Shown: positions 24,527 through 33,114 of the stretch, piece after piece
How positions within the stretch are numbered: position 1 is the stretch's first letter
Layout of the letters: each line of letters opens with the position of its first letter
Program-made: the position numbers and the translations under genes
Notes under the pieces: generated by a model
Seen by the model: only the letters and a program-made list of their open reading frames with translations
Databases searched by the model: none
Told to the model about the DNA's origin: nothing
Assembly (NCBI GenBank): GCA_015489465.1
Contig: WFZS01000200.1
Location: forward strand, 1 to 45,063
Direction: 5' to 3'
DNA length: 45,063 nucleotides
DNA from: Bacteroidales bacterium
Lineage (GTDB): Bacteria > Bacteroidota > Bacteroidia > Bacteroidales > F082

Positions 24527-25750
24527 ATGACAGAAAAAATCTCATCACAAAAAGCAATAGAGCTTGAAGAAAAATACGGTGCACATAATTACCATCCGTT
24601 ACCGGTGGTAATTGCAAAAGGAAAAGGCCCTAAAGTTTGGGATGCCGAAGGAAAAGAATATTTTGACTTTTTATCGGCTTATTCGGCCGTAAATCAAGGT
24701 CATTGTCATCCTAAAATTGTTGAAGCACTCATAGATCAGGCACAAACACTTACTTTAACATCACGTGCTTTTTACAATAACGTGCTGGGGCTTTTTGAAA
24801 AGTATGTTACCGAAATGTTCGGATACGACAAGGTTTTGCCCATGAACTCGGGAGCCGAAGGTGATGAAACCGCTTTGAAACTTGCAAGGAAATGGGCATA
24901 TGAGAAAAAAGGGATTCCCGAAAATGAAGCTAAAATTATCGCTTGTGAAAATAACTTTCACGGCAGAACAATAACTATTATTTCAATGTCAACGGATCCG
25001 ACGGCCAAAAAAGGTTTCGGTCCTTATACACCCGGTTTTAAAATAATACCTTATAACAATTTGGAGGCTTTGGAAAAAGCTCTTGAAGATCCTAACGTTG
25101 CAGCATTTCTTGTTGAGCCTATCCAAGGAGAAGCCGGCGTTTTCGTTCCCGACGAAGGATATTTGAGCAAGGCTTACGATTTGTGTAAAAAGAATAATGT
25201 TCTTTTTATTGCCGATGAAGTACAAACGGGTATTGCCAGAACCGGTAAACTTTTGGCATGTGATCATGAAAATGTTCGTCCCGATATTTTAATACTCGGT
25301 AAAGCCCTTTCGGGAGGAGCATACCCGGTTTCTGCGGTGTTGGCCGACGACGATATTATGCTGACCATAAAACCCGGTGAACACGGCTCTACATTCGGAG
25401 GTAACCCGTTGGCAGCAAGAGTTGCTATGGCTGCACTTCAGGTGGTAAAAGATGAAAATCTCGCCGAACGTGCCGATAAACTGGGAAAGATTTTCAGAGA
25501 GGAGATGAGAAAAATAAATTCGGATATGATAGGTCAAGTCAGGGGAAAAGGACTTCTTAATGCCGTTGTTATTAAACCTAAAGGTGATAAAACGGCTTGG
25601 GACGTTTGTGTAAAACTTATGGAAAACGGATTGTTGGCAAAACCTACTCATAACGACATTATAAGATTTGCACCTCCGCTTGTTATCTCCGAAGAGGAAT
25701 TGATGCAGGCTATAGAAATTATCAAAAAAACAATCGAATCTTTCGATTGA
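24527..25750 (+). CDS. rocD: Ornithine aminotransferase
   Basis: PLP-dependent class III aminotransferase that converts ornithine and 2-oxoglutarate to glutamate semialdehyde and glutamate, linking arginine and proline metabolism; cytosolic. The 407-residue protein has the OAT-typical start [16 protein letters not shown], the glycine-rich cofactor block [18 protein letters not shown], the acidic [17 protein letters not shown]-type motif, and the PLP lysine K259 in [16 protein letters not shown]. The H-x-P-L-P pattern near the N-terminus favours ornithine over acetylornithine as substrate. A strong terminator 27 bp past the stop separates it from the next genes. Confidence 0.95.
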
Positions 25751-25776
25751 TTATTTATTCATTAGCACTTGATTTT

Positions 25777-25818
25777 AAGGTCTCCGCTTCTTTTTTGGAA
25801 AAGGAGACCTTATTTTTT
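25777..25818 (+). terminator. Terminator after rocD
   Basis: AAGGTCTCC (25777-25785) pairs perfectly with GGAGACCTT (25803-25811) around a 17-nt loop; ATTTTTTG follows. Its presence argues against any coding start upstream of 25846 for the next gene. Confidence 0.85.
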
Positions 25819-25832
25819 GTGGCTATATTTAT

Positions 25833-25840
25833 TACCTTTG
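25833..25840 (+). promoter_or_regulatory. -7 box 5 nt from the deacetylase-like gene ATG
   Basis: TACCTTTG matches TAnnTTTG. Only GCGTT lies between it and the ATG at 25846, the same spacing as at the TPR gene, so the mRNA is probably leaderless. Confidence 0.5.
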
Positions 25841-25845
25841 GCGTT

Positions 25846-27162
25846 ATGGATAAATTACTGATTTACGTCCCAAAATTAACATCGAGGATAAGATATACAT
25901 TCAAACTTGTATTTAGTGACATACTTTTGATGGAGTATGAACTTACAGACGATCTTGATTTTTATCTTTCTTCCGACAGACCGAGGATGCAGTATGCTCC
26001 CAAACCTTATTCGGATGATCTTTTTTTTATGTCACACGGATTATTGCTGAAAAGAGGTACCGAAGTTATAGATGTTGATGTTGTAGAATACGAAGGAATA
26101 AATGCTATTTTCCCGGTTGAAGATTCGTCATCGGCAATGCCTTTTGATGTTTTTTCGGCAATATTTTATCTTGTTTCCAGATATGAAGAATATCTTCCGT
26201 TTGTCAGGGATAAACATGGGAGATTCACCGCTGAAAAAAGCCTCGCATTTCAATTGGGTTTTTTAAGAAAACCCGTAGTTAATATTTGGGCGCTCAAAAT
26301 AAGGTCCATTCTTCTTGATAAATATCCCGACTTGAAGTATTCAATACGGAACTACAAATTTATTCCGACCTACGATATTGATTCGGCTTGGGCTTATAAA
26401 GAAAAAGGTTTGGTTAGGACAATAGGAGGCTATTTGTTGGCTTTGAAAAATATGGATTGGTATGATATTAAAGAAAGAACGCTGGTATTACTAAACATGA
26501 AAAAAGATCCGTTTGATACTTATGATTTACAACTTTCATATCAAAAAAAATACGGACTAAAGCCGGTTTATTTTTTCCTTTTTGCACGTTATTCCAATTA
26601 TGATAAAAACATAAATACACGAAATAAAAGGTTCCGCCATCTTATCATACGAATAATGGATTACGCAAAAATAGGTATTCATCCTTCGTATTATTCTGTT
26701 GAGCATCCGGAGCTTGTTAAAAAAGAACTTGAAGAACTTGAAAAAGTTGTAAATAAGGATATTAATAGGAGCCGTCAACATTTTTTAAGATTAATATTGC
26801 CCCACACATACAGGAATATAATAGAAAACGACATCATAGACGATTATACCATGGGCTATGCTTCGCAACCCGGTTTCAGAGCCGGCATTTGTACTCCTTT
26901 TTATTTTTACGACCTGGATATTGAACGGGAAACAAATTTGAGATTAAATCCGTTTGCCGTTATGGATGGTACTTTAAACGACTATATGCATCTTACAACA
27001 TTGGATGCTTTGGATATTATTAAAGAATTAATAGACGAAGTTAAAAAAGTTAACGGTACTTTTATTTCATTATGGCATAATGAATCTTTAAGTGACGAAC
27101 TGCGTTGGAAAGGGTGGCGTAAATTGTATGAACAAATGTTGGAACTTGCCGTTGAAAATTAA
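25846..27162 (+). CDS. Polysaccharide deacetylase-like protein (DUF7033 type)
   Basis: A 438-residue cytosolic protein of a family common in Bacteroidota, with an N-terminal DUF7033-like region and a C-terminal NodB-like fold. Visible pieces: PFDVFSAIFYLVSRYEEYLP, the acidic TYDIDSAW motif that matches the D-x-D metal site, GIHPSYYS, GYASQPGFRAGICTPFYFYD and FISLWHNESLS. No signal peptide. I start it at the ATG at 25846: a reading from 25747 would run through the rocD terminator and a -7 box. The FemAB-like gene follows after 9 bp. The family is annotated as deacetylase by fold only; a role in surface polysaccharide or lipid modification is inference. Confidence 0.8.
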   Translation: MDKLLIYVPKLTSRIRYTFKLVFSDILLMEYELTDDLDFYLSSDRPRMQYAPKPYSDDLFFMSHGLLLKRGTEVIDVDVVEYEGINAIFPVEDSSSAMPFDVFSAIFYLVSRYEEYLPFVRDKHGRFTAEKSLAFQLGFLRKPVVNIWALKIRSILLDKYPDLKYSIRNYKFIPTYDIDSAWAYKEKGLVRTIGGYLLALKNMDWYDIKERTLVLLNMKKDPFDTYDLQLSYQKKYGLKPVYFFLFARYSNYDKNINTRNKRFRHLIIRIMDYAKIGIHPSYYSVEHPELVKKELEELEKVVNKDINRSRQHFLRLILPHTYRNIIENDIIDDYTMGYASQPGFRAGICTPFYFYDLDIERETNLRLNPFAVMDGTLNDYMHLTTLDALDIIKELIDEVKKVNGTFISLWHNESLSDELRWKGWRKLYEQMLELAVEN

Positions 27163-27171
27163 ATTTATGTA

Positions 27172-28104
27172 ATGATTAAATACGTAAAACATAAAAATAT
27201 TGACAAGGAAAAATGGGACGACCTTATCGGAAAAGCGTTTAATGGAAATATTTACGCTTATTCATGGTATCTGGATATTGTTCATCCGTATTGGGATGCA
27301 TTGATAGAAGATGATTACGAAAGAGTTATGCCGATGCCCGTGTCAAGAAAGTTCGGGATTAAATACATGCTACAACCTTTTTTTGCACAACAGCTTGGGG
27401 TTTTTTCATCATCTATTTTGACACCCGACAATGTAGCTGCTTTTTTAAATGCTATTCCGCGCAATATTAAACTGGTTGAAATAAATCTAAACAGTTATAA
27501 CAGAATTGTTGACGAAAGGTTTGATATAAGATTTCGTAAAAATTATCTGTTGGATCTTATAAATCCTTATGAAATTACAAGGAAAAACTACTCGACAAAT
27601 CATAAAAGAAAACTGAAGAAAGCGGAAAAACTTCAGCTTGGAATTTTAAAAAATATACGACCCGACGATATTGTTACTCTTTTTAGAGCTAATAAAGGAA
27701 AAAAAATCAAAAAGTGGACGGATCATCATTATTTGAGGTTGCAGCATTTAATGTATATGGCAATTCACAAAGGCAAAGGAGTTACTTACGGTGTTTTTTC
27801 GGGGAATAACGAACTTCTTGCCGGGGCATGTTTTTTTAAGAGCCATTCAAAACTTGTATTTATATTCTCGGGACAAAGCGAAGAGGGCATGAAAAATAAC
27901 AGTCTGGCTTATTTAATTGATAATGTGATACAACAATATTCACCCGGAAACTATATTTTGGATTTTGAAGGCTCGGACGACCCGGGGATGGCCCGTTTTT
28001 ACAAAGGTTTCGGAGCAAAAGAGACTTTATATTACCAATTTCGAAGAAACAATCTTATTTTGCCTCTGTCGGTTGCTTATAAACTGAAAAAGAAAGTCGG
28101 TTAG
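27172..28104 (+). CDS. FemAB/GNAT-like acyltransferase
   Basis: A 310-residue protein with the GNAT-like double fold of the FemAB / Acetyltransf_6 group. Features: an N-terminal WDDLIGKAFNGNIYAYSWYLDI, a basic helix NYSTNHKRKLKKAEK in the middle, then GACFFKSHSKLVFIFSGQSEEGMKNN and a C-terminal LDFEGSDDPGMARFYKGFGA block, which resembles the end of GNAT domains. FemAB proteins add amino acids from aminoacyl-tRNA to peptidoglycan precursors, and others acylate sugars; the substrate here is unknown. The 9-bp gap to the deacetylase-like gene indicates one operon, and the pair recurs in Bacteroidota. No terminator is visible after it. Confidence 0.7.
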   Translation: MIKYVKHKNIDKEKWDDLIGKAFNGNIYAYSWYLDIVHPYWDALIEDDYERVMPMPVSRKFGIKYMLQPFFAQQLGVFSSSILTPDNVAAFLNAIPRNIKLVEINLNSYNRIVDERFDIRFRKNYLLDLINPYEITRKNYSTNHKRKLKKAEKLQLGILKNIRPDDIVTLFRANKGKKIKKWTDHHYLRLQHLMYMAIHKGKGVTYGVFSGNNELLAGACFFKSHSKLVFIFSGQSEEGMKNNSLAYLIDNVIQQYSPGNYILDFEGSDDPGMARFYKGFGAKETLYYQFRRNNLILPLSVAYKLKKKVG

Positions 28105-28176: not shown

Positions 28177-28206
28177 TTGACAAACCCGAAAAAATTAGTA
28201 TTTTTG
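28177..28206 (+). promoter_or_regulatory. Promoter of the rimP-nusA-infB operon
   Basis: TTG (28177-28179), a 19-nt spacer and TATTTTTG (28199-28206). This is the best match to the Bacteroidota -33/-7 promoter in the window. The transcript would carry a leader of about 60 nt before rimP. Confidence 0.75.
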
Positions 28207-28221
28207 CAGGCGTTTTTAAAC

Positions 28222-28269
28222 ATGAGGAAAGATTTTTGTGAGGGGACAACAAGTCCCCTCTTTTTATAG
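28222..28269 (+). other. Possible 15-codon leader ORF before rimP
   Basis: An ATG at 28222 opens a frame of 15 codons that ends with TAG at 28267-28269, 3 nt before the rimP ATG. It runs straight through the hairpin at 28240-28260. The encoded peptide, MRKDFCEGTTSPLFL, is not recognisable. Whether it is translated cannot be judged from one sequence. Confidence 0.3.
28240..28265 (+). promoter_or_regulatory. Terminator-like hairpin in the rimP leader (putative attenuator)
   Basis: GAGGGGAC (28240-28247) pairs perfectly with GTCCCCTC (28253-28260) around AACAA, followed by TTTTT. It has all the marks of an intrinsic terminator but lies between the operon promoter and the rimP ATG (28273), so it should act as an attenuator or affect initiation at rimP. 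The downstream genes include nusA, whose product acts on such hairpins; E. coli nusA autoregulates its own operon. Confidence 0.65.
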
Positions 28270-28272
28270 ATT

Positions 28273-28734
28273 ATGATAGATAAAAGAAAAATAGAAAAGT
28301 TAGTTGCGGAAAATTTGGAAGGTACGGACCGTTTTGTTGTGGATATTAAAGTGAGTCCTGAAAACCTTATTCAGGTTTTTATTGACTCCGATTCAGCCGT
28401 GACTATCAAAAACTGTGTGGATTTGAGCAGGCATATAGAGGGGAATTTGGACAGGGATGAAGAGGATTTTGAATTACGTGTAATGTCGTCGGGAGCGGAC
28501 CGTCCGTTTCAAATGTTGCGACAATATAAAAAGAATGTCGGGAGAAAAGTTAATGTAACGTTAAAGGACGGTACCGAATTGAGGGGCGAATTATTGGAGG
28601 CTGATGATCAAGGAATTAAAATTCAAGAGGAAAAACTTGTAAAAAGAGGTAGAAAAAAAGATTATAAAGCGGGTGAAATTAAATATTTGCCCATGAGTGA
28701 TATAAATCAAACTAAGGTTATAATTACATTTTAG
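28273..28734 (+). CDS. rimP: Ribosome maturation factor RimP
   Basis: Cytosolic factor for 30S subunit maturation. The 153-residue length is normal. The N-terminal domain has the family motif VDIKVSPENLIQVFIDSD and DLSRHIEGNLD, with the conserved ELRVMSSGADRPF (classically V-SSPG-DRPL) where the domains meet; the C-terminal SH3-like domain includes GRKVNVTLKDGTELRGELLEA. First gene of the standard rimP-nusA-infB operon; nusA follows after 29 bp. A promoter and attenuator-like hairpin lie just upstream. Confidence 0.94.
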   Translation: MIDKRKIEKLVAENLEGTDRFVVDIKVSPENLIQVFIDSDSAVTIKNCVDLSRHIEGNLDRDEEDFELRVMSSGADRPFQMLRQYKKNVGRKVNVTLKDGTELRGELLEADDQGIKIQEEKLVKRGRKKDYKAGEIKYLPMSDINQTKVIITF

Positions 28735-28763: not shown

Positions 28764-30011
28764 ATGGATAAAATAAATCTGGTAGAGACCTTTTCCGAAT
28801 TTAACGAGCTGAAAAATATCGACAGGGAATCTTTAATGAGTATTCTTGTCAGTGTTTTCAAAAATATGCTGAAAAAGAAATACGGCGAAAACGCTAACTT
28901 TGATATTATTGTTAACGTTGACAAAGGTGACCTTGAAATATGGAGAACAAGAACTATTGTTGAAGATGACGAATTGGAAGATCCCAGCAAGGAAATAGCT
29001 CTTTCGAAAGCCATTGAAATAGAGCCCGATTTTGAAGTGGGTGAAGATGTGGTAGAGCAAATTACGTTAAACGATTTTAACAGGAGGGAAATTTTGGCTA
29101 TACGCCAGAATCTTGTTACCATGGTAATGAAAAGAGAGAAAGAGGCGAGTTTTAACAAGTATCGTGAAAAGTTGGGTGAAATAGTAACAGGCGAAGTTTA
29201 CCAGGTTTGGAAAAACAGAATTATGGTTTTGGATGATGAGGAGATAGAGCTTATCCTTCCCAAAGATCAGCAAATCCCGTCGGATTATTTCCGTAAAGGA
29301 GATACTGTGCGGGCTGTGGTTTCGAAAGTTAACTTTGATGAAAACTCAAATAAGCTCGAGATTATTCTGAGTCGTACTTCACCGGTATTTCTCGAAAGAT
29401 TGTTTGAACAGGAAGTTCCCGAAATCTACGACGGACTTATCACCATTAAAAAGATTGTAAGGGTGCCCGGGGAAAGAGCTAAAGTTGCGGTGGAGTCGTA
29501 TGACGACAGAATTGACCCTGTGGGTGCTTGCGTTGGTATGAAAGGTTCAAGAATTCACGGTATCGTTCGTGAACTTCGTAATGAAAATATTGACGTTATA
29601 AATTACACCACAAATACTTCTTTATACATTCAAAGAGCTTTGTCGCCTGCACAGATTACTAAAATAGTTATTGACGAAGACAAAAAGCACGCTATGGTTT
29701 ATATGAAACCGGACCAGGTTTCTTTAGCTATCGGAAAAGGCGGGCATAATATAAAACTAGCGGGAAAACTTACAGGTTACGAAATTGATATTTATAGAGA
29801 TCCGGAGTATGATGCCAACGACGACGTAAGTTTGGAAGAATTTGAGGACGAGATTGAAAAATGGATTCTTGACGAATTCAGAGCAATAGGTCTTGATACC
29901 GCAAAAAGTGTTTTAAGTCTTGATATTGACGAACTCGTTAAAAGAACCGACCTTGAAGAGGAAACTATCAAAGAGGTGGTTAAAATACTTAAAGAAGAGT
30001 TCGACTATTAA
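28764..30011 (+). CDS. nusA: Transcription termination/antitermination factor NusA
   Basis: RNA polymerase-binding factor that affects pausing, termination and antitermination. The 415-residue protein has the N-terminal polymerase-binding domain (about 1-130, with LVETFSEFNELKNIDRESLM), an S1 domain (about 135-200, ITGEVYQVWKNRIMVLDDEE-like), and two KH domains (about 225-345) with GACVGMKGSRIHGIVRELRNENID and SLAIGKGGHNIKLAGKLTGYEIDI. A helix-hairpin-helix-like segment follows (about 365-412). The repeated acidic domains of the E. coli protein are absent, as is usual outside Proteobacteria. infB follows after 109 bp. Confidence 0.96.
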   Translation: MDKINLVETFSEFNELKNIDRESLMSILVSVFKNMLKKKYGENANFDIIVNVDKGDLEIWRTRTIVEDDELEDPSKEIALSKAIEIEPDFEVGEDVVEQITLNDFNRREILAIRQNLVTMVMKREKEASFNKYREKLGEIVTGEVYQVWKNRIMVLDDEEIELILPKDQQIPSDYFRKGDTVRAVVSKVNFDENSNKLEIILSRTSPVFLERLFEQEVPEIYDGLITIKKIVRVPGERAKVAVESYDDRIDPVGACVGMKGSRIHGIVRELRNENIDVINYTTNTSLYIQRALSPAQITKIVIDEDKKHAMVYMKPDQVSLAIGKGGHNIKLAGKLTGYEIDIYRDPEYDANDDVSLEEFEDEIEKWILDEFRAIGLDTAKSVLSLDIDELVKRTDLEEETIKEVVKILKEEFDY

Positions 30012-30120: not shown

Positions 30121-33114
30121 ATGAGTTCAGTGAAACCGATTAGATTAAACAAGGCTGCAAGAGATTTTAATCTTAGTACAGGCACAGTTGTGGAATTCCT
30201 CGAAAGCAAAGGGTTTAAGATTGAAAATCCTAACCCTAACACCAAACTTAGTGTTGAGATGGTTGAAGCTTTGGAAAAGGAGTTTCATTACGATAAAATA
30301 TTAAAACAGGAAATTTCTCAAAAAAATAAAGATTCAAAAAAGCACCTTGAATCGGTTACTATTGAAGACATAAAAAAAGAGGAGAAAGTAGAGGAGGAAG
30401 AATTATTTGATGTAGATGTTTTTGATGAAAAGAAAGAAGAAAGAAAAGTTAAAGAGGAGAGTGTGGAAGAAACGGTGGAAGAAAAAGTAGAGAAAGAAGA
30501 AGAAAAGGAAGAAATTGAAAAAAAGGAGGAACAAAAAGAAGAGGAAAAAGAAACAGTTGTTGTTGAAAAAGAAGTTGAGAAAGTTGTTGAAACGGAGGAA
30601 TCTCCGGTAGCGGCAAATGAGGAGGAAATAGATCAAAAGGAAAAGAAAGAACCGGCTGCTGAAGAACAAGAGGAAACTGTTGAACAAGTTGAAGGAGTTA
30701 AAGTTGTAGGAAAAATTGATATTGACAGTTTAAATCAAAAAACACGTCCTGCTAAAAAAACAAAGGCTCAAAAGCGTAAAGAAGCCGAAGAAAAGAAAAA
30801 AGCAGGGCAAAAGAAAAAAGAAAAAGAAAAAACAGCAATTGAAGCGCAAAATAAAAAAGCTCAAGAAGAGAAAATAGCTGAAGAGATTGAAGCAGAGAAA
30901 GTTAGGCAAGAGAAAATTGCGGAAGTTAAAGCCCGGGAAGAAAAAGATAATTTTATTGAAACGAAATACGAAAAGCTGGACGGACCTACCGTTGTAGGTA
31001 AGATTGACCTTCCTTCTAATAAATCGAAACAAAAGAAAAAAGGAGGTAGTAACAAGCCTGTAGCTTCTTCAAGTGAAGCTCCTGCGGATATCTCCAAAAG
31101 AAAAAATAAAAGACCCAGGATAGAAAAACAAGGTAAAGGTAAACAGGGAGCTAAAAATGCCGATGCAGGCGCTGGCAAGGGAAGAAAAAAAGGACACAAA
31201 CATACGCCTAAACCGGAGCTTTCGGAGGAAGATATCCAAAAACAACTTAAAGAAACATTGGCACGACTGCAGAAACAGGGTTCCAAATCGAAAGCATCTA
31301 AACACCGTAGAGAAAAAAGAGCGAATATTGCCGAGATAGCAAGAAAAGCTCATGAAAGTGATGATGACAAAGTTATTAAAGTTACGGAGTTTCTGACGGC
31401 CGGTGAACTTGCTGCTTTAATGGATGTAAATGTTATTGAAGTAATTAACAAATGTATGGCACTCGGAGTGGTTGTTTCGATAAATCAACGACTTGATGCC
31501 GAAACAATATCCATTGTAGCCGAAGAATTCGGCTATACGGCAAAATTTGTTGATATTGATGAAGAGGATGTTGCCGGTACAAAAGAAGAAGAACAGGATA
31601 ATCCGGAAGATTTGGTTACCAGAAACCCGATAGTAACCGTTATGGGACATGTGGACCATGGAAAAACCAAACTTCTCGACTATATACGTCATTCAAATGT
31701 TGTTGCCGGTGAGGCCGGAGGTATCACGCAGCATATCGGTGCTTACGAAGTTGAATTACCCGACGGAAGAAAAATCACTTTTCTCGATACTCCGGGTCAT
31801 GAAGCGTTTACCGCTATGCGTGCCAGAGGCGCTAAAGTTACGGATATTGCAATTATAGTTATTGCTGCCGACGATGCGGTAATGCCCCAAACAAAAGAAG
31901 CTATTACCCATGCTCAAGCCGCAGGTGTCCCCATAGTTTTTGCTTTTAACAAAATGGATAAACCCGGAGCCAATGCCGACAGAATTCGTGAACAGTTGGC
32001 AAACATGAATATTCTTGTTGAAGAATGGGGAGGTAAATACCAATCTCAAGAAATTTCAGCCGTAACGGGTATGGGTGTTAATGAATTGCTGGAAAAAGTT
32101 TTGCTTGAAGCCGAACTTCTTGAACTTAAAGCCAATCCTAAAAAACCTGCTGCCGGAACGGTGCTTGAAGCTTCGCTGGATAAGGGTAGGGGATATGTTG
32201 CAAATATTTTGGTTCAAGACGGAACTTTAAGAAAAGGTGATGTTCTTGTTGCGGGACCCGTTTACGGCAGGGTAAAAGCTTTATATAATGAAAGAAATAA
32301 ATTGATTCAGGAAGCAGGACCGGCCACCCCGGCTCTTTTGTTGGGTCTCACCGGAGCTCCGCAAGCGGGAGATTTATTTAAAGTATATAAAGATGAGAAA
32401 GAAGCCAGACAAGTGGCAAACAAACGCCAGCAACTGTTGCGCGAGCAGACTCTCAGAACCAAGAAACACATCACTCTTGATGAGATTGGTAGAAGAATCG
32501 CAATAGGAGACTTTAAAGAACTTAACCTTATTATCAAAGGTGATGTTGACGGCTCCGTTGAAGCTCTGTCCGATGAATTGTTGAAATTGTCAACGGAAGA
32601 GGTTCAGGTTAATATTATTCATAAAGCCGTTGGTGCTATTACCGAAACGGATGTAATGTTGGCTTCCGCTTCGGATGCAATTATTATCGGTTTTATGGTA
32701 CGTCCGGTACCTTCGGCACGTAGATTGGCCGAAAGGGAACAAGTGGATATCAAAACATACTCTATTATTTATCAAGCTAAAGAGGAAATTGAAGATGCCA
32801 TTAAAGGTATGTTAACCAGGAAGACTGAAGAAAAGATTGTTTGTAACCTCGAAGTTCGACAAGTATTTAAAGTTTCAAAAGTAGGCACTGTTGCGGGTTG
32901 TTATGTGCTTGACGGTAAAATAACACGTAACACCAAAATACGTTTGATACGTGACGGTATCGTTGTTTATACAGGTAATTTGGGGTCGCTCAAACGTTTT
33001 AAAGATGATGTTAAAGAGGTGTCGGCAGGATACGAGTGCGGTCTTAATATTGAAAATTTTAACGATATTAAAGTAGGTGACATCATTGAAGGATATGAAA
33101 TTGTTGAGATTTAG
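30121..33114 (+). CDS. infB: Translation initiation factor IF-2
   Basis: GTPase that places fMet-tRNA in the P site and promotes subunit joining. At 997 residues it is long because of a highly charged, low-complexity N-terminal linker (about 60-410, rich in E and K). A small IF2_N domain sits at 1-55 ([26 protein letters not shown]). The second IF2_N-like block is [19 protein letters not shown]. The G domain begins at P-loop GHVDHGKT (509-516), followed by G2 [12 protein letters not shown]3 DTPGHEAF and G4 NKMD. Beta-barrel and C-terminal fMet-tRNA-binding domains complete it. Last gene of the operon, closed by a strong terminator. Confidence 0.97.

Follow-up and report, generated by a model that had tools for sequence, protein, structure and literature searches.

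A conserved hairpin upstream of rimP-nusA-infB in Bacteroidota, a probable transcription attenuator of the rimP-leader kind

Results

Organisation of the rimP leader

The window, that is the whole stretch of 45,063 nucleotides of Bacteroidales DNA analysed here, carries rimP, nusA and infB on its forward strand, behind a short leader. The features of interest are the following.

28177..28182, + strand: TTGACA, probable promoter element of the -33 type, read from the sequence
28199..28206, + strand: -7 box TATTTTTG (TAnnTTTG), read from the sequence, 19 nt after TTG
28222..28269, + strand: 15-codon ATG frame over the hairpin, judged fortuitous, the frame not being conserved
28240..28260, + strand: putative attenuator hairpin GAGGGGAC-AACAA-GUCCCCUC, from sequence, conservation, covariation and specificity
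28261..28265, + strand: U-tract (T5) of the predicted intrinsic terminator, read from the sequence
28273..28734, + strand: rimP (NCBIfam NF002531)
28764..30011, + strand: nusA (NCBIfam TIGR01953), proposed feedback regulator
30121..33114, + strand: infB, encoding IF-2 (NCBIfam TIGR00487)

An earlier note, made on the sequence of the window, had placed a promoter before the hairpin. TTGACA and a box fitting the consensus TAnnTTTG, as quoted in PMC9723704, are indeed present, and the box is conserved upstream of rimP across loci (see below). The perfect 8-bp stem of that note, with its 5′ arm GAGGGGAC (28240-28247), loop AACAA (28248-28252) and 3′ arm GTCCCCTC (28253-28260), and the T-run behind it were both read directly in the sequence. 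The distance of 12 nt to the rimP start codon, an ATG at 28273, holds for the end of the stem and not for that of the T-run, which lies 7 nt before the ATG. The 15-codon frame starting at 28222 and running through the hairpin exists as well, and its TAG leaves 3 nt before rimP.

Taken alone, the sequence of the window gave a modest signal. A scan of 1.6 kb detected 2 terminator-like sites, against 0.7 +/− 0.9 in shuffled sequences, and the z-score of the leader fold was −2.75. The consensus promoter scan of the region, TTGACA included, gave no excess over chance: 8 sigma-70-type promoter-like sites were found against 5.9 +/− 2.4 in shuffles, so that the scan says nothing in favour of a promoter. 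Comparison across loci was decisive.

The surroundings of the leader were also inspected. A second terminator-like hairpin is found inside rimP, at 28357-28375 (approximately +85 to +103 of the gene). Upstream of the leader and on the same strand lies an ORF of 310 aa (27172-28104) with no NCBIfam match; in the interval from this ORF to the rimP promoter, the scan detected no terminator-like site. Further upstream, the ORF at 25747-27162 has a match below cut-off to the deacetylase VimE (183 bits, for a cut-off of 440).

Conservation of the hairpin and of the promoter box

The comparison drew on RimP loci from 57 of 61 genomes, including that of the window, and from 55 named contigs. Three loci with an upstream sequence identical to that of another locus (L026, L060, L063) and one for which no start was found (L097) were left out, giving 108 loci. 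With a strict rule (7 bp or more of stem, 4 or more G-C pairs, 5 or more T in 8), applied to the 107 loci having at least 150 nt upstream, a hairpin was detected upstream of rimP in 93 cases. Among controls on the same 107 loci, ten dinucleotide shuffles gave 0 to 2 hairpins each, the antisense strand gave 14, and the inside of rimP gave 1, this last control covering +100 to +256 of the gene. Self-complementarity of the stem is perhaps partly responsible for the antisense passes. The attenuator-like hairpin of the earlier note is conserved in relatives, contrary to one outcome that the note had named as refuting it, and its outer pairs covary, as detailed below. The named loci include Bacteroidales, Prevotella, Chryseobacterium and Crocinitomicaceae.

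A laxer rule (6 bp, 3 G-C pairs, 200 nt upstream) was satisfied in 97 of the 108 loci, one of these matches (L095) being AT-rich, weak and doubtful. The 11 misses were of several kinds. Three loci (L003-L005) have the same stem followed by a weak U-tract, one contig (L029) begins inside the hairpin, three loci (L042, L049, L112) have a different hairpin with a mismatch, and in the last four (L075, L082, L106, L108) the hairpin is there with a poor tail.

Of the 108 loci, 105 have a TAnnTTTG box in the 200 nt preceding rimP; ten shuffles gave 12 to 23, and the antisense strand 13. In the window the box precedes the hairpin, as it does in 79 of 80 hairpin loci outside the tRNA group (see below); among 100 hairpin loci, only L052 has it between hairpin and ATG. 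As the box is found before the hairpin and almost never after it, transcription of rimP must cross the hairpin, barring a non-consensus promoter.

Covariation of the stem and nature of the tail

For the alignment, 72 rows were chosen by the motif GGGGRC...GUYCCC, so that the inner columns are invariant partly by selection, and the two outer pairs lie outside the motif. Column pair 13-35 was GC in 41 rows, UA in 14, CG in 6, GU in 5, AU in 2 and another combination in 4; column pair 14-34 was AU in 64, UA in 3, GU in 2, CG in 1 and other in 2. Two-sided changes amounted to 32 cells against 9.6 in shuffles, a count that takes in a further outermost position, unpaired in 40 of the 72 rows. Most of the covariation signal was lost when the partner column was slid. 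The number of pairs with a two-sided change, 3, is not unusual, being reached in 131 of 500 shuffles.

Stems that are rewritten and still pair were found outside the motif: GAGAGAGGUC...ACCUCUCU in L070, L072 and L074, the GAGAGAGGUC... type also in L100, and GAGGGGCUU...AAGCUCCUC in L090 and L092. The rewritten stems of L070, L072, L074 and L100, together with the unrelated terminators of L042, L049, L079 and L112, indicate that not every locus can depend on a single protein strictly recognising GGGG.

Most loci had first been chosen with a T-rich tail, which biases any count of tails, and the tail was therefore recounted on loci picked by the stem only, tail ignored. At least 5 T in the 8 nt following the stem were present in 69 of 74 such loci, the exceptions being L003-L005, L075 and L082. 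The U-tract of L075 and L082 is weak (ATTTCGTA). In L003-L005, which belong to the same genus as the window, the stem is kept and the U-tract is weak (TTTGCGTA or TTTGCATA), unlike in the window. The gap between stem and ATG ranged from 6 to 143 nt over the 100 hairpin loci, with a median of 17 nt.

Specificity for rimP

R1, a covariance model of the Bacteroidota hairpin, matched 50 of the 61 genomes at E 0.01 or better. After merging three opposite-strand duplicates, 54 distinct places were counted, 49 of them at rimP and five without a recognisable rimP alongside (G054, G027, G021, G059, and contig C86 of the window's genome). Since many of these loci went into building R1, matches at rimP are expected, and it is the scarcity of matches elsewhere that is informative. 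In a scan of the phylum (21 candidates per genome scored), at least 40 of 296 genomes were matched, the window's included. Of the 40 places outside the window 27 were inspected, and 17 were upstream of rimP and 10 were not. All 17 had E 1.3e-4 or better, and nine of the other 10 had E above this value, the tenth (L169) reaching 3.4e-5.

Rfam model RF01770, which does match E. coli, found nothing in this region of the window even with E allowed to reach 10, and scored above its cut-off in none of 60 genomes of the window's order. Reciprocally, R1 gave no convincing match on the E. coli leader (7.8 bits, E 4.6). No Rfam family was above threshold for the leader of the window; the best match below it, STnc290, reached 28 bits where the gathering score is 60. 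Its alignment falls mostly on the hairpin and T-run, and it was rejected.

As a control for stem conservation, terminators of tmRNA genes were searched for, and 9 of 29 tmRNA loci had one. The 5′ arms had an identical 6-mer in common in 11% of tmRNA-terminator pairs, compared to 69% for 50 rimP hairpins. This control supports reading the conserved stem sequence as proof of specific recognition, an argument that is weakened by the small size of the control, by the rewritten rimP stems, and by the fact that T1, a terminator found after tRNA-Gln (next section), is also conserved among its own loci.

Leaders with a tRNA-Gln gene

In 35 of the 108 loci, a tRNA-Gln(UUG) gene lies upstream of rimP on the same strand. 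One of these (L064), with the tRNA 591 nt away across a run of N, was set aside, and in the 34 loci kept the tRNA is within 230 nt of rimP. Its absence elsewhere is a weaker statement, as 900 nt of upstream sequence were available in only 70 of the 108 loci, and 350 nt in 101. The window has no tRNA in front of rimP, and a 93% identical tRNA-Gln is found on another contig of the same genome.

Three layouts were distinguished, in which H is the rimP hairpin, P the TAnnTTTG box and T1 a different terminator.

tRNA-H-rimP, 20 of 34 loci, no TAnnTTTG box between: L006, L008, L010, L011, L013-L015, L019-L021, L024, L025, L027, L031, L034, L037, L039, L044, L059, L061
tRNA-T1-rimP, 4 of 34 loci: L042, L049, L079, L112
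tRNA-T1-P-H-rimP, 10 of 34 loci: 9 found by script, and L038, in which box and hairpin are present and T1 was not detected

No TAnnTTTG box was found between tRNA and rimP in the 24 loci of the first two layouts. In all 20 loci examined for it, a box sits 10 to 15 nt ahead of the tRNA, and the other four (L039, L042, L112, L049) also have one upstream of the tRNA. Judging from these positions, transcription from the tRNA promoter may continue into rimP in the 24 loci, unless a non-consensus promoter serves it. In every one of the 34 tRNA-Gln loci, the stretch from the nearest promoter box to rimP contains a terminator-like hairpin.

The terminator of tRNA-Gln is of the type CCTGCTAC...GTAACAGG, often with one mismatch, in L007, L009, L012, L016-L018, L023, L032 and L035, and a similar hairpin is present in place of the rimP attenuator in L042, L049 and L112. 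The contig of L059, titled ‘Chlorobiota bacterium’, a label that may be wrong, encodes a RimP 54% identical to that of the window, behind the same tRNA-Gln-hairpin-rimP layout. No paper on tRNA-Gln and rimP in Bacteroidetes was found in a single, limited literature search.

Search for other elements in the leader

Fold analysis was carried out on 99 valid rows of 100 (L005 being out), and the antiterminator was judged by energy only. In the 76 leaders having only the promoter, the hairpin was part of the minimum-energy fold in 75. When the hairpin was forbidden, the best remaining structure had a median energy of 0.0 kcal/mol, the value being −0.2 when the upstream sequence was shuffled; it fell below the shuffled mean in 17 of the 76. 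By this energy comparison, no antiterminator was found in these leaders. No sensing domain was found in the leader, and the search for a conserved upstream protein-binding element yielded nothing beyond a slight preference for purines between −15 and −11 (52 loci).

Discussion

A probable attenuator of rimP-nusA-infB

The hairpin of the window follows a promoter box, is conserved, covaries, is followed by a U-tract, and is accompanied by no other strongly conserved element. We propose, with a probability of roughly 0.72, that it is an intrinsic terminator acting as a transcription attenuator of rimP-nusA-infB, with the terminated fraction most likely set by a trans-acting factor, NusA being the first choice. 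RNA polymerase would start near 28210 and soon make the GAGGGGAC/GUCCCCUC hairpin and its U-tract, where a fraction of the polymerases would terminate, releasing an RNA of about 55 nt. The rimP-nusA-infB messenger would then come from read-through only. The lack of both a sensing domain and an antiterminator is what points to a factor acting in trans: high NusA would cause more termination, and hence less NusA. Precedents in B. subtilis and E. coli make such a feedback plausible. Termination in vivo would be partial and its extent set by NusA, perhaps together with NusG. With the account of NusG-dependent terminators outlined in PMC8060035, the UUUUUAU and UUUUAUU tails met here are compatible, and no more. 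Counted against an attenuator are the weak U-tracts of L003-L005, L075 and L082, the poor tails of L106 and L108, the AT-rich hairpin of L095, the antisense passes and the rewritten stems.

Other explanations for the hairpin were weighed. It might act on translation or on mRNA stability, as an operator or a 5′ stabiliser, rather than on transcription. It lies 6 to 23 nt before the ATG in about three quarters of the 100 hairpin loci, and the stem persists in L003-L005 despite the weak U-tract, both of which would suit such a role. However, a gap that extends up to 143 nt fits poorly with a fixed operator over the start codon, a T-rich tail right after the stem is present in nearly all stem-picked loci (69 of 74), and in four tRNA-linked loci unrelated terminators stand in for the hairpin, which makes this explanation unlikely. 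We give somewhat less credit still to the view that the hairpin merely ends an upstream transcript, that of the gene at 27172-28104 in the window or of tRNA-Gln elsewhere, and leaves rimP unregulated. This view would account for the 24 of 108 loci in which the hairpin directly follows tRNA-Gln with no box between, as well as for the upstream gene of the window, to which the scan assigned no terminator-like site. It does not account for the box, which precedes the hairpin in the window and in all but one of the 80 non-tRNA hairpin loci, and follows it only in L052.

The earlier note had also suggested that translation of the 15-codon ORF decides between hairpin formation, hence termination, and read-through. 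The ORF is present in the window and traverses the stem, and its start, ATG AGG AAA GAT, is common to the four loci of the genus that were examined. However, neither frame nor stop is conserved, even within the genus: the frame of L003 opens into rimP, and those of L004 and L005 stop after 17 codons, with the stop overlapping the rimP start. An ATG frame crosses the hairpin in only 32 of 91 loci, where frames and ends differ and some start inside the tRNA-Gln gene. Moreover, the peptide of the window (MRKDFCEGTTSPLFL) contains no run of one codon, and there is no sign of an alternative RNA structure. Attenuation by a leader peptide, largely refuted by this comparison, thus appears very improbable, and we judge the frame fortuitous and foreign to the mechanism, for which a terminator governed in trans is preferred.

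Read-through from tRNA-Gln and wider meaning

The layouts with tRNA-Gln lead to a more tentative proposal, which we hold to be somewhat less probable than not. In part of the Bacteroidota, rimP-nusA-infB would have lost its own promoter and be expressed only as read-through of tRNA-Gln, one NusA-sensitive terminator both ending the tRNA and metering NusA and IF-2. The three layouts resemble the products of different deletions in a tRNA-T1-P-attenuator-rimP arrangement, with one terminator always left after the last promoter and ahead of rimP. If they are natural deletions, they predict the need for a terminator between promoter and rimP.

A published class of attenuators is extended, on comparative evidence, to many Bacteroidota, and a covariance model is now given where the Rfam rimP family does not reach. 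This points to a very wide distribution of NusA homeostasis by premature termination.

Comparison with known systems

The rimP-leader was described by Naville and Gautheret in 2010 (PMC2965389) as the most ubiquitous attenuator, a GGGc(...)gCCC stem followed by a T-stretch, with NusA proposed as the best candidate factor. The hairpin reported here shares with it, as there described, the position upstream of rimP-nusA-infB, the short stem with G-rich 5′ arm, C-rich 3′ arm and T-stretch, the conserved stem sequence, and the general form without visible antiterminator, as in our 76 leaders. The published distance to the gene is 4 to 130 nt, and is here 12 nt in the window and 6 to 143 nt over 100 loci; the published motif is specific to rimP among terminators, and 49 of our 54 R1 places are likewise at rimP. 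In contrast to the published GGGc(...)gCCC, most stems here read GGGG-R-C...G-U-CCCC, in which one more pair, A-U or G-U, comes ahead of the closing C-G. GGGG-R-C...G-U-CCC(C) may be read as the published pattern plus one inserted pair, in 74 loci picked by that very motif; GGGGC...GCCCC without the inserted pair is found in L073, L106 and L108, for example. Neither Bacteroidetes nor Bacteroides is named in the main text of PMC2965389.

The gammaproteobacterial RF01770 concerns the same gene, and the second E. coli hairpin, GGGC...GCCC with a U-tract, is likewise close before rimP; RF01770 differs by its tandem hairpins in a 102-nt model. In E. coli, according to PMC6511841, NusA regulates its own operon, and terminators t1 and t2 precede rimP. 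On the basis of that text and of the annotation, the metY-rimP-nusA-infB leader (P-1, P0, P2, t1, t2) resembles tRNA-Gln-T1-P-H-rimP, in that a tRNA gene comes first, another promoter lies at its 3′ side, and terminators precede rimP. It differs in that its tRNA is the initiator tRNA-Met instead of tRNA-Gln and that it undergoes RNase III processing, and the window itself has no tRNA; under the read-through proposal, the deletion-like tRNA-Gln layouts would be convergent with it. For B. subtilis, the review PMC12288461 reports autoregulation of NusA through NusA-stimulated termination in its leader.

Within the Bacteroidota, the main texts on the published B. thetaiotaomicron maps (Theta-Base) do not mention rimP or nusA. 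PMC9723704 reports that rimP of Flavobacterium psychrophilum is preceded by a structured 5′ element, which further Flavobacteriaceae genera conserve and which has no Rfam match. Compared by this description only, it agrees with ours in phylum and position, and is probably the same Bacteroidota hairpin. On our best reading, the hairpin of the window is a Bacteroidota version of the rimP-leader published in 2010, unmatched by Rfam's gammaproteobacterial model. The putative attenuator is of a known kind, and the tRNA-Gln architecture is mildly novel.
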